Below are positions 1 to 12,790 of a DNA stretch of 12,790 bases, piece by piece. A program made the translations under genes and the position numbers. Under the pieces are notes generated by a model, which was not told where the DNA came from, searched no databases, and saw only the letters and a program-made list of their open reading frames with translations. Position 1 is the first letter of the stretch. Each line of letters starts with the position of its first letter. The DNA comes from Brachyspira pilosicoli (GTDB taxonomy: Bacteria > Spirochaetota > Brachyspiria > Brachyspirales > Brachyspiraceae), in contig NZ_SRZM01000395.1 of the NCBI RefSeq assembly GCF_019402445.1, forward strand, positions 1 to 12,790. Direction: 5' to 3'.

Positions 1-73
1 ACCAAGTAGGTGCCTATCGGCAAAAGAACTTGGGTTTTACCCTACAGGCACGCTTCGCAGGGGGCAAAGCCCC
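1..73 (+). repeat. GC-rich hairpin repeat, copy A (cut by window start)
   Basis: A GC-rich patch in otherwise very AT-rich DNA, downstream of the lipoprotein gene. Nested inverted repeats are visible: GTGCCT (10-15) pairs with AGGCAC (46-51), TGCC/GGCA (11-14 and 18-21) forms a small hairpin, GGGT/ACCC (32-35 and 39-42) another, and GGGGC-AAA-GCCCC (61-73) a third. It shares AAAAGAAC (22-29) with copy C near 4923 and ACGCTTCGC (50-58) with copy F near 11532, so it belongs to the same dispersed family. No T run follows the last hairpin, so it is not a canonical intrinsic terminator. The left end is outside the window. Confidence 0.7.
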
Positions 74-157
74 AACTATAAATTTAAAACACTAAAAATT
101 TAATCACTATCAATATTTATTAATTTAGTTTTGAAACAAGTATATTATTTATAACTC

Positions 158-976
158 TTATTTATAATATTCAATCGCTTCTATATATTGATTTCTTAAT
201 TCATCATTTGTTATGCTGTTAGTAAAGTTTTTTAGATAGTTTATTCCTTCTTCTTTGTTTCCCATAATTATTTTATAAATGCCGTTAAAATATATAGCTT
301 CATATAGTTTTTGAGAATTACTATGATTGTTTAATACTTCATTAAAATATTTAATACCTTCATCAAACTGTTCATTATAAAATAAAAGTGTTCCTATATC
401 TACTAAATATGTTGGTATGTCTTCTTTTTCTATTTTGTTTTCTTTTAGTAATATGTCATACATTTCCATTGCTTCTTTATAATACTCGGAGTCTATATAT
501 ATTTTTAATTTTTCTACTGTTGGATTATCATTTGAAAACTCCTTATTAATGTTTTCTTTTTTTTCTTCTATATTTTTTATCTCTTCAAGTAAATCATTTG
601 TATCAATATAGCCTAATATCTTTTTTATAATAAAGTTATTTGTATTTATAAAAACTGTAGTAGGGAAGGCACTAATATTATATTGGTTTGTAAGAAGTTT
701 TATATTTTTATCATTGTATTCAGCATTAATTTTTAAAGGCACAAAATTGTAATTAATATTAGAAACTATGTCTTTATCCAAATAAACATTCGTCTCCATT
801 ATCTTACAAATTGTACACCAATCTGTATAAAAGTCTATCATTATGGTTTTATTTTCTTTTATAGCTTTTTCTAATGCAGTATTATAATTAGTTTCCCAAT
901 TTATTAATTGTGTATTTTGATTATTATTACAAGACAATAATAATATACTAAATGCTATAGTAAAAATATTTTTCAT
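158..976 (-). CDS. Thioredoxin-fold lipoprotein with C-terminal TPR-like helices
   Basis: A 272-residue protein with a lipoprotein signal: positive start (MKN), hydrophobic stretch, lipobox LLSC with the lipidated Cys at residue 16, then an Asn-rich linker. Residues about 25-135 resemble the thioredoxin-like domain found in DsbD C-terminal and Thioredoxin_7 proteins. The redox motif is W53-C54-T-I-C57 and the cis-proline lies in AFPTT (P105). Residues about 150-270 are helix-rich with TPR-like spacing (YYKEAMEMY, YNEQFDEGIKYF). The likely role is thiol-disulfide exchange outside the cytoplasmic membrane, as reductase or partner-specific redox protein; the substrate is unknown. The start at 976 is supported by AGGA about 8 nt upstream. 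It is transcribed separately from the ribosomal operon, being beyond that operon's terminator. A TATACT (1004-1009, minus) could be its -10 box, but no clear -35 is seen. Confidence 0.88.
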   Translation of the reverse strand: MKNIFTIAFSILLLSCNNNQNTQLINWETNYNTALEKAIKENKTIMIDFYTDWCTICKIMETNVYLDKDIVSNINYNFVPLKINAEYNDKNIKLLTNQYNISAFPTTVFINTNNFIIKKILGYIDTNDLLEEIKNIEEKKENINKEFSNDNPTVEKLKIYIDSEYYKEAMEMYDILLKENKIEKEDIPTYLVDIGTLLFYNEQFDEGIKYFNEVLNNHSNSQKLYEAIYFNGIYKIIMGNKEEGINYLKNFTNSITNDELRNQYIEAIEYYK

Positions 977-1008
977 TTATATATCCTAATTTATTTTTTA
1001 TTCAGTAT

Positions 1009-1046
1009 AAAAAAACAGCCATCATATATAAAATATAATGACTGTT
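1009..1046 (-). terminator. Rho-independent terminator of rpsF-ssb-rpsR
   Basis: Read on the minus strand, a 14-bp stem (arms 1033-1046 and 1014-1027, with two G-U wobbles) closes a 5-nt loop and is followed directly by seven T (1015-1009). It begins 33 nt after the rpsR stop and lies upstream of the lipoprotein gene, so it should end the ribosomal operon there. Confidence 0.9.
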
Positions 1047-1079
1047 ATTTATTATCAAGTATTTATATAAAACTAATTA

Positions 1080-1421
1080 TTAATATTTAGTTTCATAAGG
1101 AAGAAGAGCAATATTTCTAGCTCTCTTTATAGCTTTAGTAACTAATCTTTGATGTTTAGAGCAAGTACCATTTAAGCGTTTAGGTATGATTTTTCCACTT
1201 TCTTTAACATATTTTTTTAATAATTTTATGTCTTTATAATCTAATACATCAATATTGTTTTTGCAGAAATAGCATATTTTTTTCTTAAAGAATTTTTTTC
1301 TGCTAGCTGCATCTTTTTCATTTACTTCTTTGTTAAAATGCTGTTTTTTATCAGCTTTAACTTTATTTTCTTCTTCATTAGTAGAAGTATTTTCTATATT
1401 TTCTGTGTTTTCTAATTCCAT
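1080..1421 (-). CDS. rpsR: 30S ribosomal protein S18 with acidic N-terminal extension
   Basis: S18 is a small-subunit protein that pairs with S6 on the 16S rRNA platform. The conserved core (about residues 44-113) is unmistakable, with DYKDIKLLKKYV, ESGKIIPKR, NGTCSKHQR and AIKRARNIALLPY. It has Cys50-x2-Cys53 and Cys87-x2-His90, the arrangement of zinc-binding (C+) S18 proteins. The first 40 or so residues are a Glu/Asn/Lys-rich extension absent from the 75-residue E. coli protein. The start at 1421 is supported by GAGGAG 8 nt upstream. It is the last gene of the rpsF-ssb-rpsR operon. rplI, which often follows in other bacteria, is not here; the strong terminator comes instead. Confidence 0.97.
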   Translation of the reverse strand: MELENTENIENTSTNEEENKVKADKKQHFNKEVNEKDAASRKKFFKKKICYFCKNNIDVLDYKDIKLLKKYVKESGKIIPKRLNGTCSKHQRLVTKAIKRARNIALLPYETKY

Positions 1422-1445
1422 TATTTTATCTCCTCAAATATTTAA

Positions 1446-1883
1446 TTAAAATGGTACATCATCATCGTCAGAAAAACTACCTATATCAATACCATCAGAC
1501 ATACCGCCTCCAACAGAAGCAGAAGGAGTATATGTTGTATCCATTCCGCTAGATGGAGTGTTAGCACCTAGCATTTGCATACTATTAACTATGATTCTAA
1601 TTCTTGATTTTGTAGTATTTGTATCTTTATCTTGCCATCTATCCTGTCTTAAAGAACCATTAATAGCTATTTGTTTGCCTTTAGTTAAATATTTGCTTAT
1701 AGTTTCTGCTGTTTTACCAAAAGCAACTACATCAAAATAGTTAACCTCATTAGCATTTTTAGTGCTTACATAATAATTATTTGCTATAGAAAATTCTACA
1801 ACAGCACTTCCGCTTGGCAAATATTTTAGCATTGGGTCAGCAGTAAGTCTGCCTATTAAAGTTACATTATTTACATCTGACAT
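1446..1883 (-). CDS. ssb: Single-stranded DNA-binding protein
   Basis: A 145-residue SSB. The N-terminal OB fold (about 1-108) starts with NNVTLIGRLTADPML and includes VNYFDVVAFGKTAETISKYLTKGKQIAINGSL, typical of bacterial SSB. A short Gly/Ser linker leads to the acidic tip DDDDVPF, which binds partner proteins such as RecG and other repair factors. It sits between rpsF and rpsR in the usual order, with 31 nt to rpsF and 24 nt to rpsR, so all three are probably co-transcribed. A GAGG lies 11 nt before the ATG, a rather long spacing. Confidence 0.97.
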   Translation of the reverse strand: MSDVNNVTLIGRLTADPMLKYLPSGSAVVEFSIANNYYVSTKNANEVNYFDVVAFGKTAETISKYLTKGKQIAINGSLRQDRWQDKDTNTTKSRIRIIVNSMQMLGANTPSSGMDTTYTPSASVGGGMSDGIDIGSFSDDDDVPF

Positions 1884-1914
1884 AATAATTTAAGCCTCTT
1901 AGATTGATGAATAA

Positions 1915-2247
1915 TTATGCTTCTTGACTATTAGATTCTTCTTTTTTAACTTCTTTTTTTTGCATAATTTCATCTAAACGAACTATTATAAATCTTAATA
2001 TACTAAGCTCATATCTTAATTCTTTTTCAATTGTTTGTAAGCTTTTACCATCACATTTGAAATGATAGAAATAGAATTTACCCTCATTTACTTTACGAAT
2101 AGGGTAGCTTAGCTTGTGAATGCCATAATCTGATTCATTGAAGATTTCGCAATGATAATTTTGTAGGATTGATTTGACATGTTCTTTTGCTTTTTGATGT
2201 ACAGAGTCATTTATCTCTGTAACGAAAAGAATTTCATATTCTCTCAT
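1915..2247 (-). CDS. rpsF: 30S ribosomal protein S6
   Basis: S6 begins MREYEILFVTEIND and contains the family blocks YPIRKVNEGKFYFYHFKC and ELSILRFIIVRLDE, followed by a short Lys/Glu-rich tail; 110 residues. An upstream in-frame TTG at 2268 would add seven residues, but the Shine-Dalgarno AAGGAG (minus, 2262-2257) lies inside that extension, 9 nt before the ATG at 2247. The ATG is therefore the start. First gene of the rpsF-ssb-rpsR operon, driven by the promoter at 2320-2347. Confidence 0.96.
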   Translation of the reverse strand: MREYEILFVTEINDSVHQKAKEHVKSILQNYHCEIFNESDYGIHKLSYPIRKVNEGKFYFYHFKCDGKSLQTIEKELRYELSILRFIIVRLDEIMQKKEVKKEESNSQEA

Positions 2248-2256
2248 TTTTGTAAA

Positions 2257-2289
2257 CTCCTTGGACAAGGCTTCATATTTTTACGAAGC
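2257..2289 (-). promoter_or_regulatory. rpsF leader hairpins covering the ribosome binding site
   Basis: In the rpsF 5' leader (minus strand) CCTT-GTCC-AAGG (2270-2259) forms a small hairpin whose 3' arm is the first four bases of the AAGGAG ribosome binding site. Just upstream GCTTC (2289-2285) can pair with GAAGC (2274-2270). The two stems share base 2270, so they compete at the junction. S6:S18 is known to bind rpsF leaders in several bacteria. The CCG bulge described for that motif is not seen here, so this is only a candidate site for feedback. Confidence 0.4.
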
Positions 2290-2319
2290 GAAGTATTTAA
2301 TATTATTTTTATTCTAGCG

Positions 2320-2347
2320 ATTATATATTTTTTTGCTAAAAAGTCAA
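2320..2347 (-). promoter_or_regulatory. Promoter of the rpsF-ssb-rpsR operon
   Basis: On the minus strand, -35 TTGACT (2347-2342) and a perfect -10 TATAAT (2325-2320) are separated by 16 nt. Transcription would start near 2313, leaving a leader of about 65 nt before the rpsF ATG. Confidence 0.82.
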
Positions 2348-2421
2348 TGAATTTTATTATATAAATTTGGGTATAGAATTTTATGCTGAAATAATATATA
2401 TTAATATAAAATGGTTGTTAT

Positions 2422-4494
2422 ATGAAAGACTATAATAAAGAGATTTTTACTACAGATATAAAATATGTAAAAGGCGTAGGTCCAAAATACGCAGAAACAC
2501 TCGCTAAAAAAAATATATTCACACTTTATGATTTAATAACATTTTTCCCAAGAACATATGATGACAGAAGAAACACATTAAAGATAAATGAAGCATTAAA
2601 AAATCCAGATAAAAACTCTGTGGTGTATGTTGAAGTTATAGATGTTGGCAGTTTTACTTTTCAGTTTAGAAAGAAGCCATTAATAATAGTAACAGACGGC
2701 ATCACATTATGCGAAGTTCCTATATATGGCGGACGTGTTCCTGCTGGAGCAACTAAAGGAGCAAAATTATATCTTACAGGGAAGTTTGTACGCAATATGA
2801 GAGGGAAGGTGCAATGCAGGTTTGTGGAGTTTGAAAAGCCTTCTTCTAATTCTTTATCCTATGGAAAAATAGTGCCTATATATCCGCTTACAGAAGGGCT
2901 ATCTCAAAAAAAATTAAGAACTTTAATTGTAAGTGAGTTAGAAAAATTTGAAAAGAACATGCAATATGATATACCAAAGGTTATCAAGAAAAAATACAGA
3001 TTAAAAAGTTTTGTAAGCTCTATAATGGAGATGCATTTTCCTACATCTTTTGAGGCATTGGAAGAGGCAAGAGAGAGTTTAGTTTTTGAAGAGTTTTTAA
3101 CTTTTCAGTATATACATTTAAGCGAGAGAAGGCCAAATATACTTATAAAAGAAGAAAGGTATAATAGCAGTAATTTATTAGATAGGGTGAAATTAAGTTT
3201 AGGATTTAATCTTACAGATGACCAAAATAATGCTATAGAAGAGATAAAAAAAGATATGTTTTCTAATAGGCAATTATTTAGGCTTCTTCAGGGAGATGTT
3301 GGTGCTGGAAAAACTATTGTGGCATTTTTAACTGCATTAATACCAACAGAATCTAATTTTCAAACAGCCTTTTTAGCTCCCACAGAAATATTAGCACTTC
3401 AGCATTATTATACTTTTAAAAAAATAATAAAAAATGCCAACTTAGAAGATGTTATAAAAATAGATATACTTACTTCATCTGTTAGTCAGAATGAAAGAGC
3501 ATATACATTAAAAAGACTTAGAGAAGGCAAAACTCATATATTAGTAGGAACGCACTCTATACTATATGATGAAGTTGTATTTAAAAATCTTGCTTATGCT
3601 ATAGTAGATGAACAGCAGAGATTTGGAGTTAATCAGAGAAATAAATTATTATCAAAAGGAAATAATGTTGATTATCTATTAATGACAGCAACTCCAATAC
3701 CTCAGTCTTTGGCTTTAACTTTATTTGGAGAGTTGGATTTATCTATTATTAAGAGCATGCCGAAAGGAAGAAAGGGCGTGCTTACCAAATATAAAGAGTT
3801 ATACGAAAGAGACCATTGTTATAAGTTTTTAAAAAGCAGAATAGCAAAAGGTGAGCAGGGTTATGTGGTTTTTCCTTTTATAGAGAATGATGACAGCAGT
3901 ATAATTACTTTATCGAGCGAGTTTGAGAGGGCTAAGCAAACCTATTTTGAAAACATTAACATAGAAATAATACATGGTAAGATGAAAGATGAAGAGAAAG
4001 AATATATTATGAATAGGTTTTCAAATGGTGAGATAAAGGTGCTTTTTTCAACAACGGTAATTGAAGTAGGTATAGACAACCCCAACGCCACGACAATATT
4101 AATAGAAGGTGCAGAGCGTTTTGGATTATCGCAGCTTCATCAGCTTAGAGGAAGAGTTGGGCGTGGCGATAAACTTGGCTATTGTTACTTAATACTTCAT
4201 AGCGAGCTTAATGATATAATAAAAGAGAGAATTAATGTAATATGCGAAACTACTGATGGTTTTAAGATAGCTGAAAAAGATTTAGAGCTTAGGGGTGCTG
4301 GAGAGTTTTTGGGAGATAAGCAAAGCGGCATAGCAGATTTTAAGCTTGGAAATATTGTAAAAGATGCTGAGATTATGCGTAAGGCAAAAGATGAGATGCG
4401 AGAATTATTGAAGCTTGATAGAGAAGAGTTTTTTAGAGAGAATGAAGACTTTGTTATTAAAGCGAATTATTTAAAGAAAGAAATGAATATTTAG
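2422..4494 (+). CDS. recG: ATP-dependent DNA helicase RecG
   Basis: RecG remodels stalled replication forks and Holliday junctions. The 690-residue length and domain order fit: N-terminal wedge region with the start motif KGVGPKYAETLAKKNIFTLYDLITFFPR (split here as KGVGPKYAETL and LYDLITFFPR), an OB-fold wedge near residues 60-150, then the two helicase lobes. Visible motifs are Walker A GDVGAGKT (291-298), motif II DEQQRFG (396-402), motif III MTATPIP, and motif VI QLRGRVGRG, followed by the RecG tail with LRGAGEFLGDKQSG. Motif II is DEQH in the RecG proteins I know; the second Gln (Q399, codon CAG) replaces that His. The gene is divergent from rpsF. The ribosome binding site is weak (GGTTG). 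A poor promoter candidate is TTGGGT (2367-2372) with AATAAT (2390-2395), 17 nt apart. Confidence 0.96.
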   Translation: MKDYNKEIFTTDIKYVKGVGPKYAETLAKKNIFTLYDLITFFPRTYDDRRNTLKINEALKNPDKNSVVYVEVIDVGSFTFQFRKKPLIIVTDGITLCEVPIYGGRVPAGATKGAKLYLTGKFVRNMRGKVQCRFVEFEKPSSNSLSYGKIVPIYPLTEGLSQKKLRTLIVSELEKFEKNMQYDIPKVIKKKYRLKSFVSSIMEMHFPTSFEALEEARESLVFEEFLTFQYIHLSERRPNILIKEERYNSSNLLDRVKLSLGFNLTDDQNNAIEEIKKDMFSNRQLFRLLQGDVGAGKTIVAFLTALIPTESNFQTAFLAPTEILALQHYYTFKKIIKNANLEDVIKIDILTSSVSQNERAYTLKRLREGKTHILVGTHSILYDEVVFKNLAYAIVDEQQRFGVNQRNKLLSKGNNVDYLLMTATPIPQSLALTLFGELDLSIIKSMPKGRKGVLTKYKELYERDHCYKFLKSRIAKGEQGYVVFPFIENDDSSIITLSSEFERAKQTYFENINIEIIHGKMKDEEKEYIMNRFSNGEIKVLFSTTVIEVGIDNPNATTILIEGAERFGLSQLHQLRGRVGRGDKLGYCYLILHSELNDIIKERINVICETTDGFKIAEKDLELRGAGEFLGDKQSGIADFKLGNIVKDAEIMRKAKDEMRELLKLDREEFFRENEDFVIKANYLKKEMNI

Positions 4495-4570
4495 TTTTTT
4501 TATTGAACTCAAAACTTGTTTATATAAATTGTTTTAAAACTTTTATGTTTAATTATATAAGTTTTTATTT

Positions 4571-4610
4571 TATTCAACTTTTTCCCGAAAGTTGCAAAAA
4601 GTGCAAATAC
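4571..4610 (+). repeat. Repeat module X, minimal copy B1
   Basis: CAACTTT (4575-4581) and AAAGTTG (4588-4594) form a perfect 7-bp stem with loop TTCCCG, followed by the family tail AAAAAGTGCAAATA. It has the same left end (TATTCAACTTTTTCCCG) and tail as copy F at 11470-11556 but lacks the GC-rich interior, so it looks like the empty form of the element. Confidence 0.65.
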
Positions 4611-4668
4611 TACAACTTTATATTTTACAATATATCTTAGATGTAATATAACATCTAAAATTTAACAT

Positions 4669-4750
4669 ATACCTAAAGGTAGATTTTATAAAATGCAGTT
4701 CTTTTGGTTCTTTTATACCAATACCAAATTCGGGGGCTAGTCCCCGAAAT
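4669..4750 (+). repeat. Repeat module Y, copy B2, with near-perfect palindrome
   Basis: Starts with ATACCTAAAGGTA (4669-4681, also in copies C and D), then ATAAAATGCAGT (4688-4699, identical at 6173-6184), a stem TTGGT...ACCAA, and the palindrome TTCGGGGGCTAGTCCCCGAA (4729-4748; one G-T wobble). The second copy at 6171-6241 has the same order and orientation. No T run follows, so a terminator role is doubtful. Confidence 0.65.
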
Positions 4751-4836
4751 AAGTAAAAACATAAAAAATAAATTTTAATGAGTTTAAAAAATATTTATAA
4801 TACATTGAAACAATTATTTTTTATCAATTTTTTGTT

Positions 4837-4951
4837 GTTCTTTTTCCCGCAGCTCGCACCAATACCTAAAGGTACTTCCTACGGTCGTAGGCACTTCCTT
4901 CGGTCGCGGTGCGGACTTCGTCAAAAGAACCAAAAAGTGCAAATATTTTAG
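4837..4951 (+). repeat. Repeat module X, full copy C with GC-rich hairpin interior
   Basis: The outer stem is GTTCTTTT (4837-4844) with AAAAGAAC (4923-4930). Inside, CGCACC (4855-4860) pairs with GGTGCG (4908-4913), enclosing ACCT-AA-AGGT (4864-4873) and CCTAC-GGTC-GTAGG (4878-4891). The tail AAAAAGTGCAAATATTTT follows. The 17-mer GTGCGGACTTCGTCAAA (4909-4925) recurs exactly in copy F (11498-11514). It lies 135 nt upstream of the cysteine hydrolase gene. Confidence 0.75.
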
Positions 4952-5086
4952 TTTTATTAAAATTAAATATAAGAGTTATAGCTTAGCCATATACTAAAAT
5001 AATTAATTATAAAACAAAAATGCTTTACAAAAATTATTATTATATTATCATGTATATAAAATAAGCTTGTATAAGGGGATTTATTT

Positions 5087-5977
5087 ATGGAATATAAACA
5101 AATAGTTAACGAAGATTATATAGCTAAAGAAGAAAACCCAATCAAACAAAGCGATATATATAAATTGGCAGAAGAGTTTGCTAGTAGTAGCGATAATAAA
5201 AAATCTGAAAATAATTATGCAATGCTTATAGTTGATGCACAGAGAGATTTTGTAGATACAGAAAAAGGGGCATTGCCTGTACGCGGAGCTAAACAAGATA
5301 TTTCAAGAATAACTAAATTTATTTTTGAAAATATAAACTCAATTTCAGCAATATACACTACAATAGACACTCATAGATATGATGCTATATTTCATCCTTG
5401 TTTATGGAAAGATAAAGAAGGTAATGATGTTAATCCTTTTACAGAAATTACAATAGAAAAAATAGAAAATAAAGAAGTAATACCTGTTTTTGAAGATATT
5501 CAAATTGATTATGTAAGAACATTAAAATCACAAGGTAGTCAAAACCTAATTGTTTGGCCTTATCATTGTATATATGCTACAGACGGCTGGCTTATAGAAA
5601 AACAATTATCTAATATGCTTCTTTTTTATGAGAGAGCAAAAAATACTTCAGTTAATAGAATAGTTAAAGGCACAGATAAATTCAGCGAAATGTATGGAGC
5701 TATAAAACAAGAAGTTGTAAGCAAATATACTTCTAATAATTCTCATACTTGGATTTATACAATGAAAGATTATGATAAAATATATATATGCGGAGAGGCA
5801 AAAGATTATTGCGTTTATGAAACTGTTAAGCAATTATGCGAAGAGTATGACAGCAGTGTTAGAAGTAAGCTTTATGTGATGATGAATTGCTGCAGTTCAA
5901 TAGGCGATGAAATAAAATGCAATTTGAAGTATAAAGAGTTGTCGAAGAAATACGGCATAAACTTGATAGAGATATAA
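5087..5977 (+). CDS. Nicotinamidase/isochorismatase-type cysteine hydrolase
   Basis: A 296-residue protein of the isochorismatase-like superfamily with all active-site positions of nicotinamidase (PncA). The triad is Asp50 (LIVDAQRDF), Lys194 (IVKGTDKFSEMYGA) and Cys242 (GEAKDYCVYETV). Metal ligands are Asp94 and His96 (TIDTHRYDAIFHP), with His103 and His160 (VWPYHC) also placed as in PncA. The likely reaction is nicotinamide to nicotinate plus ammonia, feeding NAD salvage; another amide or an isochorismate-type substrate cannot be excluded. It is longer than typical PncA (213 residues in E. coli): a 43-residue polar N-terminal extension and an insert near 108-150 account for this. The start is backed by AAGGGGA 7 nt upstream. 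It stands alone between two sets of repeat modules, with no operon partner, and no terminator of standard form follows. Confidence 0.88.
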   Translation: MEYKQIVNEDYIAKEENPIKQSDIYKLAEEFASSSDNKKSENNYAMLIVDAQRDFVDTEKGALPVRGAKQDISRITKFIFENINSISAIYTTIDTHRYDAIFHPCLWKDKEGNDVNPFTEITIEKIENKEVIPVFEDIQIDYVRTLKSQGSQNLIVWPYHCIYATDGWLIEKQLSNMLLFYERAKNTSVNRIVKGTDKFSEMYGAIKQEVVSKYTSNNSHTWIYTMKDYDKIYICGEAKDYCVYETVKQLCEEYDSSVRSKLYVMMNCCSSIGDEIKCNLKYKELSKKYGINLIEI

Positions 5978-6003
5978 TTATTAGTTTATCAATTTTTTTT
6001 ATT

Positions 6004-6112
6004 GTTCTTTTTCCCGCCGCTCGCACCCATACCTAAAGGTACTTCTTTCAGTCGCAGGCACTCCCTTCGGTCGCGGTGCGGAGTTATTCAAAGTTTAAAA
6101 AATGCAAATATT
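6004..6112 (+). repeat. Repeat module X, copy D, with mismatched outer arms
   Basis: Closely matches copy C: GTTCTTTTTCCCGC at the left, CGCACC (6022-6027) pairing with GGTGCG (6075-6080), ATACCTAAAGGTA (6029-6041), CTTCGGTCGCGGTGCGGA, and the tail ATGCAAATATTT. The left arm is of the GTTCTTTT type, while the right side reads CAAAGTTTAAAA, which is the partner of the CAACTTT type in copies B1 and F. The outer stem therefore no longer pairs well. Confidence 0.72.
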
Positions 6113-6170
6113 TAAATTTCATATATAATAAAAATATATATAAATAATAAAATATGTTTTGGGTGATATT

Positions 6171-6241
6171 TCATAAAATGCAGTCTTTTTGCTTCTTTGG
6201 GTCACCAAAAGAAGTAGGGGTTTGGGGACTAGTCCCCAAAA
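6171..6241 (+). repeat. Repeat module Y, copy E, with perfect 20-nt palindrome
   Basis: Contains ATAAAATGCAGT (6173-6184), a stem CTTCTTTGG (6192-6200) with CCAAAAGAAG (6205-6214), and the perfect palindrome TTTGGGGACTAGTCCCCAAA (6221-6240). Compared with copy B2 the palindrome differs at symmetric positions so that pairing is kept (T-A replaced by C-G). It could be an RNA hairpin or a DNA protein-binding site; a run of A, not T, follows on the plus strand. Confidence 0.72.
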
Positions 6242-6387
6242 ATAATGCAAAAATAAAAATTAAACAAATATTTTCACAAACTACCAAATATTCACTATAC
6301 ACAAAAAATAATATTTAACTTAAAAAATAAACATACTTTTTCCGAGAATTAATGCAGTAAAATTAATTTTTATTATGATGAGTAAAT

Positions 6388-7539
6388 ATGGCTATAATAG
6401 AGTTTAAATTACCAACTAGAATAAAATTCGGAATTGATTCTATAGAATGTCTTCATGACACAATTAAACAATACGGCGGAAGAGTTGTTGTTGTAACAGA
6501 TGGAAACTCTTTCAATCAAATAGGCGTAATAGATAGAATAGTAAGCAAATTAGAAGATAATCTAATGAATGTTATGGTTTATTCTAAAGTAGGTTCAAGT
6601 TCTAATAGTGATGCTTCAGATGTTATAGCTAATTTAGTAAGATATAGTAAAGCAGAATGTATAGTTGCTATAGGAGGATTTAAAGTTCAAAATATAGCTA
6701 AAGGTGCTTCTGTTGTAGTTACTAATAGCGGAGAAGCTTCAGATTATGTTGGTGGTCAAACTGTATATCATAAGCCATTCCCATTAATAAGCGTGCCTAC
6801 TATACTTGGTTCTTTATCAGAAATTACTACTGGAATGTATTTGGTAGATAAATATGATGGAATATGCAAAGAATCTACTGATAAAAATATATATGCAAGT
6901 GATTGTATAATAGACCCTGCATTATATACAACAGTACCTGTAAAATATTCTATAAGCAGTGCTTTAAGTGTATTTGCTATGGCTTTTGACTTGTATATGA
7001 GCACTACTCTAAATGAAATTAATGCTCCTATTATTAAAAATGCTATGAGATTAAGCATAAAAGGATTAAGTAAACTTATATTAGACAGCTCAAATGTAGA
7101 CAATATATCAAATATAGCTATGGCTAATATGATGTGTGCTATGGCTAGTTCTAATGCTAGTCTTGGGGCTTCAAGGGCTTTATCTATTGCTATTAATAAT
7201 ATGTATAATGTTAATAAATCCATTATCTCTTCAATGCTTCTTCCGCATATTATGGAATATTATATACCTGTTGTACCTGATAAATATACAATACTTGCAG
7301 ATTTCATTAACGGAGTTGACCCTGAAATGACTCCTTTTGAAATAGCAAGCCAAAGCGGTGAATATATTAAAAAACTTCTTCATGACCTCAACTTACCTAG
7401 AAGACTTAATGAAATAAATATGGATAGAAGCAAATTTAATAATGTTGCTAGTATAGCTTTAACTTACAGCGGTATGGACAAACTTCCTAAAGCTATGACG
7501 TATGATGCTATCACTACAATATTAGACCAAGCTTATTAA
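6388..7539 (+). CDS. Iron-ADH/glycerol dehydrogenase-fold protein lacking metal ligands
   Basis: A 383-residue protein aligning end to end with group III iron-containing alcohol dehydrogenases (FucO/GldA fold): ADKA-like opening PTRIKFGIDSIECL, Rossmann-like half with VVVVTDGNSF and CIVAIGG, then a helical half ending LLPHIMEY. Key motifs are degraded. The nucleotide motif GGGS is GGFK (96-99), with the following Asp replaced by Asn102. PTTAGTGSE-like is PTILGSLSE (137-145). By alignment from memory to E. coli FucO, ligands D196, H200, H263 and H277 correspond to Ser194, Met198, Ile267 and Lys277. The frame is long and intact with normal codon use, so it is probably expressed. A dehydrogenase activity is unlikely; a structural, binding or regulatory role is possible but unknown. 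Its stop is 2 nt from the stop of the converging exonuclease gene. Confidence 0.85.
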   Translation: MAIIEFKLPTRIKFGIDSIECLHDTIKQYGGRVVVVTDGNSFNQIGVIDRIVSKLEDNLMNVMVYSKVGSSSNSDASDVIANLVRYSKAECIVAIGGFKVQNIAKGASVVVTNSGEASDYVGGQTVYHKPFPLISVPTILGSLSEITTGMYLVDKYDGICKESTDKNIYASDCIIDPALYTTVPVKYSISSALSVFAMAFDLYMSTTLNEINAPIIKNAMRLSIKGLSKLILDSSNVDNISNIAMANMMCAMASSNASLGASRALSIAINNMYNVNKSIISSMLLPHIMEYYIPVVPDKYTILADFINGVDPEMTPFEIASQSGEYIKKLLHDLNLPRRLNEINMDRSKFNNVASIALTYSGMDKLPKAMTYDAITTILDQAY

Positions 7540-7541
7540 TT

Positions 7542-8438
7542 TTAATCATCATTTTTAGGTGAATATTTATGAGGGTGTTTGTGAAGATAGTCTATTAATT
7601 TTTTATTAGGCTTATATTTACTCACAGAAGGAAGCTTTTTATATTCTAAAAGAGTAGTATTATATTTTTCAGCATATTTATTGTATGCAAGACATAATAA
7701 ATATTCTAAATCAATAGTATCAAGCAAATTATAATGTATGAGAGAATCTATTGCTGTTTCATCTTTAGTATCTAAATAATAATTCCAAAGCAAAACGGCG
7801 GTGTATCCATTCACACCAAGCATATCGTCTCCCCTATCAATGCCAACATCTTTCTCTATTTTTTTTAATCCGCCGGTATAACCCAAGTCCTTTAATACAA
7901 AACGCAAATCTATCTGAGCACATTTTATTTTTGTATTAAAATATCTCTCTAAAAATGGTATATCAAAACAAGAACCATTAAAAGTAACAACAATAGAATA
8001 ATTTTTTATATAATCTAGAAAATCTCTCTCATTTTTTCCATGAATAAACACCTGCATATCTTTACCGTCATAACAGCCTATCACTGTAACATAAGACTTT
8101 GCAGGCTTCATACCTGTAGTTTCTATATCCAAAAACACAGTTTTATCCATAAACATAGGATAAAGTCTATATAATACTTGATTAGGAAACTTCTTTAAAA
8201 AATAATCATAATTTTTTGAGTTCAAATTATATATAGATTTGGGAAGTTCATCTTTTAAGGCTTCTCTTATAGAATTAGGCATTGCATAATAATTAATATT
8301 TTTTAATGCACTTTGCCAATCTTTTAAACCTTCTTCCCAAAGTAGGGCTTCTTTTTTAGGACCAATACCGCTTATATGCTGATAAGTATTAGTAATTAAA
8401 TCTATTATATTATTATTTTCTTTTCCATCTAACGCCAT
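7542..8438 (-). CDS. RNase H-fold 3'-5' exonuclease (YprB-like)
   Basis: A 298-residue protein with a DEDD-type exonuclease domain. Exo I is DIETTG (D104, E106), Exo II FNGSCFDIPFLE (N154, D159), and Exo III HYNLLDTIDLE (Y236, D240). This pattern is typical of the YprB/RNase_H_2 group, predicted to cut nucleic acids with two metal ions. Residues 20-38 (QHISGIGPKKEALLWEEGL) look like a helix-hairpin-helix, suggesting DNA or RNA binding. The ATG at 8438 lies inside the end of cysS, a 26-nt overlap in another frame, with no clear ribosome binding site, so translation is probably coupled to cysS. No other start occurs in the first 50 codons. Substrate not known. Confidence 0.88.
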   Translation of the reverse strand: MALDGKENNNIIDLITNTYQHISGIGPKKEALLWEEGLKDWQSALKNINYYAMPNSIREALKDELPKSIYNLNSKNYDYFLKKFPNQVLYRLYPMFMDKTVFLDIETTGMKPAKSYVTVIGCYDGKDMQVFIHGKNERDFLDYIKNYSIVVTFNGSCFDIPFLERYFNTKIKCAQIDLRFVLKDLGYTGGLKKIEKDVGIDRGDDMLGVNGYTAVLLWNYYLDTKDETAIDSLIHYNLLDTIDLEYLLCLAYNKYAEKYNTTLLEYKKLPSVSKYKPNKKLIDYLHKHPHKYSPKNDD

Positions 8439-9822
8439 TTGGTGTATCCATTATCTCTATTCCCATACTGTTAAGTTCATCTCTTATCTCATCTGCTCTT
8501 TTATAATTTTTCTCTTTTTTAGCTAAAGTACGTTCTTCTATGAGTTTATTAATTTTTTCTTCTTCTGAGCTTTCTATTTCTTTTTCACCATTCATATTAA
8601 AACAGTTTATTATATTATTTACTCTCTCTATAAACTTTATTATAGCATCTCTTGAACTAACATTAATAGAATCAAAAGAAATATTTATACTCTTTATAAA
8701 ACTAAAAAATACTCCCAAAGCCTCAGAAACATTTAAATCATCATAAATAGATTCAAAGAAGTTTTTATTAGCCTCTTCAAGTTCTTTCATTACAGCATTA
8801 TCATCAGCATCAGTTTTATTAACATCTTTAAGTCTAAATATAAGATCATTAACTCTGTCTATTGCACTTTGAGATTGATTGATTCCTTCTATAGTAAAGT
8901 TTAATTGCTTTCTATAATGAGAGTTCATAAGCGAATATCTTATAGCCTCAGCAGATAAACCTTTATTAAGCAAATCTCTAAGAGTATAAAAATTGCCTTT
9001 AGACTTTGACATCTTCTCTCCATCAACAATTAAATGCTCGCAGTGAAGCCAATAGTTAACAAACTTCTCATTAAAAGCAGCCTCATTTTGTGCTATTTCG
9101 TTTTCATGATGAGGAAATTTATTATCAACCCCTCCAGTATGTATATCAAAATGCTTGCCCAAATATTTGCAGCTCATAGCAGAGCATTCTATATGCCAAC
9201 CAGGTCTGCCCTTTCCAAAAGGAGAATCCCAATAAACATCTCCGTCTTCTTCTGTGTATGCTTTCCAAAGTACAAAGTCGCTTGCATTTTCTTTATCATA
9301 TTCATCGCTTGAAACTCTTCCAGAAGCTCCCTCTTTTAATTCCTGCTTATCAAGGTTAGCTAATTCACCATACTCTGGAAATGTGCTTATCTTAAAATAT
9401 ATAGAACCGTCTGCCTCATAAGTATGACCGTTTTTTTCTAGAAGTTTTATTATATCTATCATCTCTTTTATATGTTCTGTAGCAGAAGGGTTTACTGTTG
9501 CGGGCTTTATTCTTAAAGTTTTTATATCTTCAAAAAAAGCCTCTTTATATTTTTTTGTATATTCACTTAATGATATATGATTTTCTTTTGAGTTTCTTAT
9601 AGTTTTATCATCAACATCTGTTAAGTTCATTACTAGCTTTACATTATATCCATAATCTTCTAAAACTCTTCTCACCAAATCACTAAATATATAAGCCCTA
9701 AAATTACCAATATGAGCATAATTATAAACCGTAGGTCCGCAAGAATACATTCCAACCTCTTTTTCATTCATCGGTTTAAACTCTTCTTTTTGCCTAGTTA
9801 ATGAATTATAAAACTTAATCAT
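8413..9822 (-). CDS. cysS: Cysteinyl-tRNA synthetase
   Basis: Class I synthetase joining cysteine to tRNA-Cys in the cytoplasm; 469 residues, normal length. The signature HIGN is at 37-40 and KMSKS at 270-274. Zinc ligands include Cys28 (SCGPTVYNY) and the WHIECSAM Cys, with HHENEIAQ supplying the usual His/Glu. The C-terminal end DTPNGVRWKRK is the family's usual closing motif, so the overlap with the downstream exonuclease gene is real rather than a frameshift artefact. The start is supported by AAGGAA 8 nt upstream and by the promoter at 9871-9898. Confidence 0.97.
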   Translation of the reverse strand: MIKFYNSLTRQKEEFKPMNEKEVGMYSCGPTVYNYAHIGNFRAYIFSDLVRRVLEDYGYNVKLVMNLTDVDDKTIRNSKENHISLSEYTKKYKEAFFEDIKTLRIKPATVNPSATEHIKEMIDIIKLLEKNGHTYEADGSIYFKISTFPEYGELANLDKQELKEGASGRVSSDEYDKENASDFVLWKAYTEEDGDVYWDSPFGKGRPGWHIECSAMSCKYLGKHFDIHTGGVDNKFPHHENEIAQNEAAFNEKFVNYWLHCEHLIVDGEKMSKSKGNFYTLRDLLNKGLSAEAIRYSLMNSHYRKQLNFTIEGINQSQSAIDRVNDLIFRLKDVNKTDADDNAVMKELEEANKNFFESIYDDLNVSEALGVFFSFIKSINISFDSINVSSRDAIIKFIERVNNIINCFNMNGEKEIESSEEEKINKLIEERTLAKKEKNYKRADEIRDELNSMGIEIMDTPNGVRWKRK

Positions 9823-9870
9823 AAAACTATTTCCTTAATAATAACTCTATTCAATAAAAATATTTCTACC

Positions 9871-9898
9871 ATTTTACTTAAAAGGCTTTATTTGTCAA
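9871..9898 (-). promoter_or_regulatory. Promoter of cysS-exonuclease operon
   Basis: Minus strand -35 TTGACA (9898-9893, perfect) and -10 TAAAAT (9876-9871) with a 16-nt spacer. Expected transcription start near 9864, about 40 nt before the cysS ATG. Confidence 0.75.
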
Positions 9899-10014
9899 GG
9901 TTTTTAAGGGCTCTTTTTGCAAACTAAAATTACATATTATCAATTAAAATAACACAATTAATACAATTACAAATTATATTATTAAATTAAACAAAAAAAA
10001 TACTGCTTTTACTC

Positions 10015-10043
10015 TTGACTTTTTTAATAGTCTGCTATAGAAT
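10015..10043 (+). promoter_or_regulatory. tRNA promoter
   Basis: -35 TTGACT (10015-10020) and -10 TAGAAT (10038-10043) with a 17-nt spacer; a TG dinucleotide lies just upstream of the -10. The start would be near 10050, about 20 nt before the mature tRNA. Confidence 0.75.
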
Positions 10044-10071
10044 AGCAAAATCAAAACAAACAAAATAATAG

Positions 10072-10145
10072 GGGCCAGTAGCTCAGTCGGTTAGAGCAGA
10101 TGACTCATAATCATCGGGTCCGGGGTTCAAGTCCCTGCTGGCCCA
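10072..10145 (+). tRNA. tRNA with anticodon CAT (Ile2-type or elongator Met)
   Basis: Full cloverleaf: acceptor stem GGGCCAG/CTGGCCC, D arm GCTC...GAGC, anticodon stem GATGA/TCATC with loop CTCATAA (anticodon CAT), T arm CGGGG-TTCAAGT-CCCTG, discriminator A at 10145. CCA is not encoded. The first pair is G1-C72, so it is not the initiator, which has a mismatch at this position. C4-G69 and C5-G68, plus GACTCATAATC, match E. coli tRNA-Ile2 (lysidine-modified, reads AUA) better than E. coli elongator tRNA-Met. Which of the two it is cannot be settled without the other CAT tRNAs of this genome. No terminator is visible behind it. Confidence 0.95.
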
Positions 10146-10179
10146 CTTATTTCCCCTTAAAAATCTTAATTAATCAATC

Positions 10180-11394
10180 TCACATGCTAGCAAAGAAAAA
10201 CGGTAGAACAAAGCATATAATCAAAAACCATACTAAATAAATATAAATAAATATCATATGCTTAGTATTGTCTATACATATATCTTTCATTACAATGCAC
10301 TCTTCAAATGAAGTCTTAAATGTTTTTACAACGTTAATCGCAATATAAATAAGATGTGCTAAAAACAATATACAATTTATTAAAAGTATAAGTTTACTCA
10401 TAGAAAAGCCATAATTTATAATTCTATATATTATAGTGCTGAATATAATTAAATCCAATAATGATATAGAAATTACAACCAAACAATATATTATCTTAGT
10501 TAATATAGTAGCCTTTTTATCTAGCCTTGTAAACAAAAGATTAATCATCATAAGAGAAAGTGCTATATTATAAACCACAAAACTAACTGTATTTGCATAA
10601 GGTCTAAACTCTGCAGATAATAATGCGATAAAAAGTATAAATATAATTATCAAGCTAAATATCATAATCATTCTTGATAAATATATTGATATAATAGACT
10701 TAGTTTTTCTATATAAAAAATAAGATACAAATAAAGCTAAACTATATAAAAATATTATTAAAGAAATAGCAATTTTTGCAAATATAAATCCCGCCTCATC
10801 ATAAGAATAAACTAACGAAGCTAAAGAAGCACCTACTATAAAAATTAAAAAATATGCTATTGAAACTAAAACACTGCTTGCTGTATTAATAATAAAAAGC
10901 CAAGAGAAAGTCTCTCCGACCATAGTAAAAAACTCAGATATATTTTTTGTGTCTTTTAAATCAAAATTTATATAAGAAATAATCATTATAATAAAAAATA
11001 TACAAGGCACAAATACCAAATTATTTATAATAACATAAAAATCTTCAGAATCATACGGAGGCATTGTAACATAATTAAACATAAAATGAAAAGAAAATAA
11101 CAGTAAACTTATTAGCAAAAAAGACAAAAAAGTCATTACTATTGTTTTAATTTTTAATACGTCTGTATGAAAAAATATAGTAAAACAAAATAAATAAAAA
11201 AATGAAAAAGGATAGCTTTTTACAACAAATAAAATCAATGTATTTGCTTCTATTATATCAATACTAAATAAATATATATATAAAGGCACATTTGAAAATA
11301 GTATTGCAAATATACTAAGTAATATTTTCAAGTTTTTATTTAAAGTGATGTCCGTATTTATGATATTTAAAAATTTATTATACATTGTTTCCAT
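10180..11394 (-). CDS. Multi-pass membrane protein, DUF4153-like
   Basis: A protein of about 404 residues (421 if started at 11445) made of around ten to twelve hydrophobic segments with short charged loops. The pieces EFRPYANTVSF and YRIINYGFSMSKL resemble conserved blocks of the DUF4153 membrane family (PYD-like and R-x-x-YG motifs), so I assign it there with moderate confidence; the family's function is not established. The start is uncertain. The longest frame begins at 11445 without a ribosome binding site, and its first 17 codons cover two overlapping TATAAT boxes (11405-11415, minus). I prefer the ATG at 11394 or the one at 11385, but neither has a good ribosome binding site. It points away from the S-component gene, with repeat F between them, and converges on the tRNA. 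Confidence 0.8.
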   Translation of the reverse strand: METMYNKFLNIINTDITLNKNLKILLSIFAILFSNVPLYIYLFSIDIIEANTLILFVVKSYPFSFFYLFCFTIFFHTDVLKIKTIVMTFLSFLLISLLLFSFHFMFNYVTMPPYDSEDFYVIINNLVFVPCIFFIIMIISYINFDLKDTKNISEFFTMVGETFSWLFIINTASSVLVSIAYFLIFIVGASLASLVYSYDEAGFIFAKIAISLIIFLYSLALFVSYFLYRKTKSIISIYLSRMIMIFSLIIIFILFIALLSAEFRPYANTVSFVVYNIALSLMMINLLFTRLDKKATILTKIIYCLVVISISLLDLIIFSTIIYRIINYGFSMSKLILLINCILFLAHLIYIAINVVKTFKTSFEECIVMKDICIDNTKHMIFIYIYLVWFLIICFVLPFFFASM

Positions 11395-11469
11395 AGACAA
11401 ATATATTATATTATAAACAAAAAAATTCAATTGATAATAGTACATACATAAAATTTTGTTATATAAGTT

Positions 11470-11556
11470 TTTTATTCAACTTTTTCCCGCCTTCGCTGTG
11501 CGGACTTCGTCAAAGTTTTCGCCTTTCGGGTACGCTTCGCGAAAAGTGCAGATATT
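11470..11556 (+). repeat. Repeat module X, copy F, two hairpins
   Basis: Left end TTTATTCAACTTTTTCCCG as in B1. CAACTTT (11477-11483) pairs with AAAGTT (11512-11517). The interior carries GTGCGGACTTCGTCAAA (11498-11514), identical to copy C. A second hairpin TTTCGC (11517-11522) with GCGAAA (11539-11544) follows, then the tail AAAAGTGCAGATATTTTTT. It sits in the divergent gap between the DUF4153-like gene and the S-component gene. The plus-strand T6 at the end comes too far from the stem for a standard terminator. Confidence 0.7.
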
Positions 11557-11634
11557 TTTTCACTATATTTAAAAAAACTCTATATTATGATATATTATTT
11601 ATAACTTTAAATAAATAACATAAGGAATAAGACT

Positions 11635-12138
11635 ATGATTAGTAGTTTGGCTATAAAAAAAATAAAATCAGAAAGTTTAATTCTTATATCTTTAATAGCA
11701 GTAAGTATAATATCTCCTATTGCTGTACACTTTGTAGGACTTAAAGGCACAGAGTTTCTTCCTATATTTTTTGCTTTATCTATAGGCACTTTTATTCTAA
11801 GCCCAATTTATTTAATAGCTCTTTCAATATTATCCCCACTTGTAAACTATTTAATATTTCAAATGCCTAATGTACCTATTTTGTATTTTTTAATATTTGA
11901 AGGAATAGTTTATTCTTTATTAATATCAGTTATTAAGCATTTTTTTAAAAACAGTAATTACATCATTATTTTATCTATTTTATCTTTTATAGCAGCAAGG
12001 TTTTCATCTATTTTATTACTAAATATATTTAATTATGATATGTGGTTTAATTCTTTAATTAATGGATATAAAGGAATAATTCTAAACTCTATTTATATAG
12101 CTTTAACATATATTATAATAAACAAAAAAAGGCAATAA
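11635..12138 (+). CDS. ECF-transporter S-component-like membrane protein
   Basis: A 167-residue, strongly hydrophobic protein with about five to six membrane spans. The central part, PIFFALSIGTFILSPIY through ILSPLVNYLIFQMPNVP to FEGIVYSLLISVI, follows the pattern of substrate-binding (S) components of energy-coupling-factor vitamin or metal transporters: a loop with SP and MP, then a helix carrying an acidic residue and small residues. The substrate cannot be told. No EcfA or EcfT genes are in the window, which fits group II systems where S components are scattered. The start is supported by AAGGA 8 nt upstream. The gene ends in an A7 run and TAA (12136-12138) right at the beginning of the comF frame, so the two are probably translated together. 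Function call is moderate; hypothetical membrane protein is the fallback. Confidence 0.72.
   Translation: MISSLAIKKIKSESLILISLIAVSIISPIAVHFVGLKGTEFLPIFFALSIGTFILSPIYLIALSILSPLVNYLIFQMPNVPILYFLIFEGIVYSLLISVIKHFFKNSNYIIILSILSFIAARFSSILLLNIFNYDMWFNSLINGYKGIILNSIYIALTYIIINKKRQ
12124..12130 (+). other. A7 homopolymer at the S-component/comF junction
   Basis: The last codons of the S-component gene read AAC AAA AAA AGG CAA TAA. The comF frame is -1 relative to this gene and is already open here. One extra A, a -1 ribosomal slip or transcript slippage on this run would fuse the two frames. It also provides an AAGG (12129-12132) placed 8 nt before an ATT in the comF frame. Confidence 0.5.
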
Positions 12139-12140
12139 AC

Positions 12141-12662
12141 ATTTTTAAACCATACAAAACTTTTTATTTAGATAATAATATAAGAGTATCTGCTCTTGGT
12201 GATTTGGATTTAGAGCTTGGAGATGAACTTAGAGCTTTTAAAAAAGAAAATATAAATAATACTCCTTTAATATTTGAAAGTTTTTTTAATTGCTATAAAT
12301 ATTTAAATACTAATTTTGATTTGCTTTTATATGTGCCATCAAATAAAAATAATAATGTTATGAGTTTTTTTGCTGATGTAATATCAAAAACGCTTAATAT
12401 AAAAAAATCTGATGATATCCTATTAAACAATAATATAAAAGAGCAAAAAGTATTGGAAACATTAAAAGAAAGAGAAGACAATATAAAAAATGCTTTTACA
12501 ATTAAAAATATAGAAAACATTAAAAATAAAAAACTTCTTATTATAGATGATGTTTATGCATCTGGTGCCACATTAAAAGAGCTTATAAAATTATTAAAAG
12601 AAAATAATATTACAGATATAGAAGTGATAGTATTTTGCTATAGAAATTATAATTTTGAGTAA
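12141..12662 (+). CDS. comF: ComF-type phosphoribosyltransferase, non-canonical start
   Basis: The type I PRTase signature LLIIDDVYASGATLKEL (about residues 132-148, Asp136-Asp137) with the preceding REDNIKNAF block (ComF R-x-x-N-x-x-x-AF) identifies a ComF-family protein. ComF aids handling of incoming single-stranded DNA in transformable bacteria, but in non-competent species its role is unclear. No zinc-ribbon N-terminus is present. The frame is open from 12072 yet contains no ATG, GTG or TTG until TTG at 12204. The codons before that TTG read YKTFYLDNNIRVSALGDLDLELGDEL, which looks like the normal ComF N-terminus. I therefore place the start at ATT 12141 (AAGG 8 nt upstream), giving 173 residues; ATA 12135 overlapping the previous stop, a frameshift from the upstream gene, or TTG 12204 (152 residues) are alternatives. 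Stop TAA at 12660-12662. Confidence 0.78.
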   Translation: MFKPYKTFYLDNNIRVSALGDLDLELGDELRAFKKENINNTPLIFESFFNCYKYLNTNFDLLLYVPSNKNNNVMSFFADVISKTLNIKKSDDILLNNNIKEQKVLETLKEREDNIKNAFTIKNIENIKNKKLLIIDDVYASGATLKELIKLLKENNITDIEVIVFCYRNYNFE

Positions 12663-12680
12663 TAAATAATTAATAATTAT

Positions 12681-12709
12681 TTGACAAAAATAAATTTCTC
12701 TATTACTAT
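12681..12709 (+). promoter_or_regulatory. Promoter of the gene starting at 12754
   Basis: Perfect -35 TTGACA (12681-12686), 17-nt spacer and -10 TACTAT (12704-12709). It lies just behind comF, overlapping an AT-only inverted repeat AATAATT/AATTATT (12665-12681). Confidence 0.65.
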
Positions 12710-12753
12710 TAGTTAATTGCTGTTTTTACTATATCAGCAAAAAGGAATCGTTT

Positions 12754-12790
12754 ATGATAGACCATAAAATCAATTTATTAGAAAAAAAAA
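12754..12790 (+). CDS. 5' end of a new gene, cut by window end
   Basis: ATG at 12754 opens a frame reading MIDHKINLLEKKK to the window end. AAGGAA (12742-12747) is about 6 nt before the ATG and the promoter at 12681-12709 is well placed. The last nine visible bases are all A (12782-12790), giving a lysine run. Too short to identify. Confidence 0.6.
   Translation, partial: MIDHKINLLEKK

Follow-up and report, generated by a model that had tools for sequence, protein, structure and literature searches.

A 12,790-nt Brachyspira contig (NZ_SRZM01000395.1; "the window" denotes this whole stretch of DNA) carries four intergenic copies of a GC-rich, hairpin-forming repeat, here called B1, C, D and F. 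B1 and C lie between recG and a gene at 5087-5977, D lies between that gene and a gene at 6388, and F lies near the far end of the contig. The window is one of the 463 contigs of a 2.47-Mb genome. The protein encoded at 2422-4494 shares 98% identity (best segment) with its counterpart in Brachyspira pilosicoli PC5538III-hc, and the main blocks of the window align at 88-96% DNA identity with four other Brachyspira genomes, G011 (a single contig), G012, G013 and G016; because of these two matches, the source genome appears to be close to B. pilosicoli. An Rfam scan of the window returned a tRNA at 10072-10145 with two sub-threshold matches at the same place, and none of the repeat elements matched a family at or near its gathering score.

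Repeat copies in the window

A reading made from the sequence alone (the sequence-only reading) had placed four copies on one strand, and all four were found where it put them, on the plus strand. The limits it drew were too narrow for B1 and D, each of which runs on into a right-hand module (Table 1). The arm types that it described pair in B1 (CAACTTT/AAAGTTG), C (GTTCTTTT/AAAAGAAC) and F (CAACTTT/AAAGTT(T)), but not in D, whose outer arms (GTTCTTT with AAAGTTT) are mismatched. The tails are GTGCAAATATTTT (C), GTGCAAATACTAC (B1), ATGCAAATATTT (D) and GTGCAGATATTTT (F), and none of the open reading frames (ORFs) of at least 80 amino acids spans the four copies. The contig start truncates a fifth copy, leaving only its right module; in this assembly, many contigs end inside repeat copies.

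Table 1. Coordinates of the repeat features in the window
Feature	Position	Strand	Basis or remark
Truncated right-hand module (hairpin III interior, 3' arm, hairpin IV GGGGGCAAAGCCCC)	1..85	+	Read from the sequence; motifs as in other right modules
B1, AT-rich left flank (TATATAAGTTTTTATTTTATT)	4554..4574	+	Conservation of the T-rich flank
B1, left hairpin CAACTTT..AAAGTTG with tail CAAAAAGTGCAAATA	4575..4609	+	G012 and G013 have orthologues next to the 5087 gene
B1, AT-rich spacer	4610..4692	+	Common to G012 and G013
B1, right module, ending in GC hairpin TTCGGGGGCTAGTCCCCGAA	4693..4749	+	Hairpin 3' arm missing here, present in G012/G013
Copy C, GTT/AAC arms, large branched interior	4837..4951	+	G012/G013 lack it in the interval from B1 to the next gene downstream
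Copy D, left hairpin, large interior, outer arms unpaired	6004..6112	+	Orthologue downstream of the 5087 gene in both G011 and G016
Copy D, right module, ATGCAGTCTTTTTGCTTCTTTGGGTCACCAAAAGAAG and GC hairpin TTTGGGGACTAGTCCCCAAA	6178..6240	+	
Copy D, putative switch interval between parental copies (rearrangement breakpoint)	6080..6260		Identity profile and synteny breaks
Copy F, CAA/TTT arms, interior TTCGCTGTGCGGACTTCGT, slot-2 insert CGCCTTTCGGGTACGCTTCGCG	11470..11556	+	Same copy with short interior in G016; copy present in G011; G013 without hairpins
Repeat end-type sequence AGTATATACTAAAA			

Architecture and spread of the repeat

A full element comprises, in order, a left hairpin, an AT-rich spacer, a right hairpin that is partly inverted relative to the left one, and a third GC-rich hairpin, with AT-rich flanks. 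The left hairpin and its tail (Table 1) precede the spacer, the spacer is followed by ATGCAGTYYTTTTG and the second hairpin (e.g. CTTCTTTGGGTCACCAAAAGAAG), and the third hairpin, GGGGCAAAGCCCC or GGGGCTAGTCCCC, passes into the AT-rich flank. Twenty-three full-length copies from the source genome and its relatives measured 306-427 nt with flanks; the stretch running from left arm to third hairpin took up 163-284 nt. Among the fetched loci of the source genome, 24 of 32 right-module matches had a left edge no more than 500 nt upstream, and at least one of the other eight (the third match of locus L065) resembles a chance match. The T-rich left flank was conserved over 68 copies at positions -12 to -4 (except -6), and by eye the conserved flank is longer in many of them. 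Because the left tail (GCAAAAAG-TGCA) is complementary to the right head (TGCA-gt-CTTTTTGC), the two halves may be partly inverted relatives, in their aligned core only. In the source genome, micro-modules such as GGCACTTCCTTCGGTCGC occur on the same strand in the interiors of left and right hairpins, though the hairpins are inverted relatives, and inserts between arm and tail look inverted.

The source genome contains the left edge CTTTTTCCCG at 75 places, split 40 to 35 between the strands; reversed-pattern controls gave 0 and 1. This is in keeping with the sequence-only reading of a dispersed structured family rather than random intergenic DNA. On inspection, 74 of these places are repeat copies and one runs through a gene. 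Of the 74, 28 are no more than 60 nt from the end of a fetched stretch, and many of these are truncated by contig ends, which makes a higher true copy number probable; the single contig of G011 holds 109 left-edge matches. Across the genus, 25 genomes gave 6 to 203 matches each, and the 2.0-Mb genome G019 gave none. A pattern for the minimal hairpin (fixed length, free arm triplets, up to three mismatches) matched 541 places altogether in 22 of 26 Brachyspira genomes, with no control matches, and was absent from all 221 sampled Spirochaetota genomes outside Brachyspira; G001 and G003 have 18 left-edge matches each, yet no minimal hairpin. No relatives of the repeat were found in a phage collection, a plasmid collection or viral contigs (the last searched with the exact minimal-hairpin pattern). 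Within the sample searched, the repeat is restricted to Brachyspira, and it is a short non-coding sequence dispersed in many intergenic copies, as are miniature inverted-repeat transposable elements (MITEs). No such family was found in the parts searched of the open-licence Brachyspira literature, and within these it appears to be undescribed, although it may be in print elsewhere.

Paired arms and exchanged interiors

We tallied by hand 150 of the 541 minimal hairpins, those listed from nine genomes between G002 and G012. Matching arm triplets were present in 146, including one with a G-T wobble: 80 CAA/TTG, 59 GTT/AAC, 5 GTA/TAC, 1 CAG/CTG (in G010, a further arm pair) and 1 TAA/TTG (the wobble), so that three haplotypes account for 144 of the 150. 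The four mismatched copies were one CAA/AAC, two GTT/TTG and one ATT/AAC. At the loci examined in the source genome and its relatives, with contig-end-cut copies and 23 rows lacking a recognised right arm (14 own, 9 relative) excluded, CAA occurred with TT in 41 copies and with AA in 2, and GTT with TT in 4 and with AA in 19 (P = 9e-11). Over the 71 copies with both arms recognised, 185 of 213 positions were paired (shuffle mean 112, maximum 149). In a set of 34 minimal hairpins, 99.0% of cells paired and two-sided changes numbered 29 against 10.0 in shuffles (0/500 reached this value), a statistic that relatedness can also produce; the six inner pairs were fixed by the way copies were selected, and in the three outer pairs that could vary, 93 of 96 cells paired. 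The two arms thus vary in concert and fall into a few haplotypes; in the window, the sequence-only reading had noticed the joint change. A subfamily with the interior GTACGAGCTGTACC..GTGCGGGG (GTACGAG...; or its start at a contig end) has lost the right arm: its members (L024 at 1096-1245, L030, L052, L028, L063 and L070) have the usual left edge and, where they can be read through, no matching right arm and a GC hairpin of their own in its place.

The same reading had described the interiors as interchangeable, and they are exchanged independently of the arms. Six interiors were found with more than one arm pair, five of these with different left arms. Downstream of the gene at 5087-5977, the orthologous site holds a minimal interior in G016 and a long branched one in G011, the GTT/AAC arms being identical and the downstream spacer almost so, and at site F the interior TTCGCTGTGCGGACTTCGT of the window stands against a short form in G016. 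Comparing the interiors of 36 left hairpins with those of 12 right ones showed 13 shared 14-mers, each on the same strand in both sets, without a single inverted match (one of the 12 right-hairpin captures, L062 at 1285, extends into the next element).

We also sought the flanks of 23 copies of the source genome in G011, G013 and G016. Among the matches listed, 17 copies had both flanks within 2 kb in every relative for which both were listed, and four had them apart in every such relative (L033 in three, L034 in two, L054 in three and L080 in one); L065 was mixed, and L067 was uninformative, its flank itself being repeat. Short gaps at otherwise occupied sites were present at L024 in G011 (60 vs 419 nt), L043 in G016 (94 vs 271) and L085 in G013 (25 vs 317), and at L089 in G016 the flanks abut, on a weak 77% match. 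L024 is the only clean allele pair, the longer G013 allele having AATATA, or a portion of this sequence (TATA, TA), at its borders. Other loci have remained stable: three genomes share a nearly identical L043, and the GTA/TAC hairpin at L053 is kept in the source genome, G011, G013 and G016. Orientation differs as well, L060 being reversed in G011 and G016 and not in G013, and L089 in G011 and G013. At L031 of G016, a reversed GC hairpin runs via the shared arm GTTCTTTT into a left-type loop, a joint that is the expected product of a polymerase or recombination switch at the arm.

Copies at rearrangement breakpoints

The counterparts of the window in G011 lie at three separate places (window positions 143-4544, 5005-6072 and 6245-12790), and these blocks meet at B1/C and at D. 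Upstream of the 6388 gene, G011, G013 and G016 have another repeat copy, which there follows a different gene. Copy D is 87-100% similar to the G011 element downstream of the 5087 gene up to ~6080 and 87-100% similar to the flanks that precede the 6388 gene in G011, G013 and G016 from ~6260 onwards, with 20-87% similarity to the four compared sequences in between. Because parental similarity switches within this interval, D is best read as a chimera of two repeat copies, recombined at a rearrangement breakpoint. B1 has kept the spacer found with the 5087 gene in G012 and G013, yet its present place is behind recG. In G012, at two places where the window is continuous near 9919-9988 (contig C63 near 33423, L114, and C84 near 91332, L117), a transposase-like frame with long matching ends (GGAGTATGAGATATTGGACATTTTTTAGTATA..) is present; by eye, it resembles an insertion sequence at a rearrangement.

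Gene context and folding

Upstream neighbours could be assigned for 63 of the 74 copies, of which 40 present their 3' end and 23 their 5' end to the repeat, and downstream neighbours for 36 (25 and 11, respectively). Combined, 65 of 99 neighbouring ends are 3' ends (P = 0.0024 against even odds, a test in which the two neighbours of one copy are not independent). Five of the 74 copies overlap a called ORF; at L077 (~1100-1140, minus strand) a copy overlaps the 3' end of a 372-amino-acid reading frame, and the repeat may supply the end of the protein. Between window positions 4480 and 6400, one terminator-like site was detected (on the complement strand, at the GC hairpin of B1) against 0.7 expected, and promoter-like sites were not more frequent than in shuffles (9 vs 13.1). 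A TTGACA-17-TATAAT look-alike seen by eye in the right flank therefore supports no claim. In single-sequence folding against shuffles, only C was unusual (z = -3.2; B1 -1.4, D 0.07, F 0.33), and two full elements, picked after the energies of 23 had been seen, gave z values of -2.69 and -2.77.

Discussion

Taken together, these results make it probable that the repeat is a Brachyspira-specific family of composite palindromes, MITE-like in type, whose copies are reshaped in situ by hairpin-driven template switching and provide substrates for recombination. Each full copy would consist of two hairpin half-units that face each other across an AT-rich spacer, plus the third GC-rich hairpin. We infer that copies once spread by transposition, as non-autonomous elements. 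Thereafter, hairpin-driven template switching and recombination between copies and between halves would expand, delete, flip and exchange the interiors, and the same events, acting as arm repair, would keep the arms complementary. The dispersed copies would serve homologous recombination, and at least the D junction of the window may have been made in this way. The excess of gene 3' ends is the least certain point and would be explained most simply if copies in promoters are removed by selection.

Several results weigh against this account. Half-against-half alignment of 23 elements did not exceed shuffles (median 21, shuffle mean 18.6, maximum 38), and the inverted-repeat reading draws on a core alignment judged by eye. 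Right arms were not recognised in nine own and seven relative copies with CAA or GTT left triplets. The short L024 allele of G011 may be a precise loss and not an insertion-free site, because G011 is nearer to the source genome than G013 and G016, which carry the element. As to rearrangement, the DNA upstream of the 6388 gene in G012 is without repeat motifs; a synteny break near 2368 has no element on either side in G013 or on the readable side in G012 (the other being a contig start); the insertion-sequence-like, transposase-like sequence of G012 near 9919 also sits at a synteny break; and the candidates for a breakpoint control were only eight gaps, some of them repeat-bearing. Finally, in a helper search covering PF01797 and PF13358, Y1_Tnp (PF01797) was found in none of 26 Brachyspira genomes (its control matched in 5 of 14), and PF13358 (DDE_3) in one, G015. 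The 25-base end motif was found on both strands at 18 places in the source genome and 35 in G011 (control 0), and by eye none of the G011 places listed face each other 1-3 kb apart. The two transposase families searched thus offer no plausible helper, which may have been lost or may belong to another family. An IS630-like helper, sought through PF13358, was represented only by the G015 match, a broken fragment with stops.

Covarying arms had been taken by the sequence-only reading as a pointer to selection for pairing. The covariation itself stands, but it does not imply such selection, because three haplotypes make up nearly all listed copies, mismatched hybrids exist and template switching can keep arms complementary; switching within hairpins has been proposed to create and mend perfect stems (PMC8794818, in the portion of the article consulted). 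The covariation may even be only apparent, if two or three old subfamilies spread with fixed arms and neither selection nor template switching was needed. The dominance of three haplotypes would fit such a history, as would the L053 hairpin, a single orthologous copy in four genomes; the same interiors with different arm pairs speak for exchange within the hairpin, yet mismatched hybrids are few (4 GTT/TT and 2 CAA/AA of 66), and the CAG/CTG pair of G010 adds a further type. On balance we consider this history doubtful, though a possibility to be taken seriously. It seems unlikely that the repeat is a functional element, either a cis-acting RNA or a transcription end, that is read from the gene before it, has hairpins that end or protect the message and is under selection for pairing. 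Such an element would account for arm covariation, for the position of copies at gene 3' ends and for the two energy-picked elements that fold better than shuffles; at L043, where others carry the element, a hairpin followed by a T run was seen by eye between the convergent genes of G016. Against it, the window elements have no Rfam match, window positions 4480-6400 hold only one terminator-like site against 0.7 expected, D and F fold no better than shuffles, the upstream neighbour presents its 5' end to 23 of 63 copies, and the region around F is divergent. Nor does the 3'-end bias need a function, because the BOX, RUP and SPRITE repeats of pneumococcus also favour convergent regions, according to the part of PMC3049150 consulted.

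REP sequences and bacterial interspersed mosaic elements (BIMEs) are inverted pairs of hairpin units in intergenic DNA. The Brachyspira repeat resembles them in its intergenic, inverted hairpin pairs, and movement by a RAYT/Y1 transposase (kin of IS200/IS605) could be imagined; with no Y1/RAYT enzyme in the 26 Brachyspira genomes, such an origin is contradicted unless the enzyme was lost from every one of them, and we rejected it as highly improbable. Comparison of described architectures brings the composite, MITE-like family close to BOX of Streptococcus pneumoniae, which the portion of PMC3049150 consulted presents as an intergenic repeat of composite build, with constant ends enclosing a variable interior, with stem-loops and with an excess between convergent genes, all features of the Brachyspira repeat. 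The two differ in that boxB varies in copy number, whereas the Brachyspira repeat holds different GC-rich micro-modules in its two hairpins and paired arm haplotypes. The Correia/NEMIS, ERIC and RUP elements, bacterial MITEs ending in TA, have terminal inverted repeats (TIR), TA termini and target duplication (PMC2229807, as far as the extract goes). They are likewise small, of high copy number and with long stem-loops; in the Brachyspira repeat the TIR and target duplication are putative, interior variability is much larger and the families searched hold no helper. CIR repeats of Caulobacter, in the same extract of PMC2229807, consist of two long hairpin arms joined by a linker, as here; they belong to another phylum and are known for GANTC in the loop. 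The repeat is a real family, by analogy close in kind to BOX and CIR, and would be distinguished from them by loop cassettes exchanged inside hairpins with matched arm haplotypes.

We tentatively suggest, as a possibility that we hold short of probable, that the family is a genus-wide natural case in which template switching rather than selection makes stem covariation: loop cassettes would be swapped between loci and between halves, arms repeatedly re-copied so that they become complementary, and halves flipped. If so, hundreds of copies would record template-switch events and drive chromosome rearrangement. More broadly, the family cautions that two-sided stem changes alone do not prove an RNA function, and it offers many natural alleles for the study of template switching. 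B. pilosicoli genomes are known to be rearranged, and one comparison noted mobile elements near rearrangement sites (PMC3532143, in the part available). The many copies close to the ends of fetched stretches may explain fragmented assemblies, and the copies at breakpoints make the repeat a further, testable substrate of rearrangement in B. pilosicoli.

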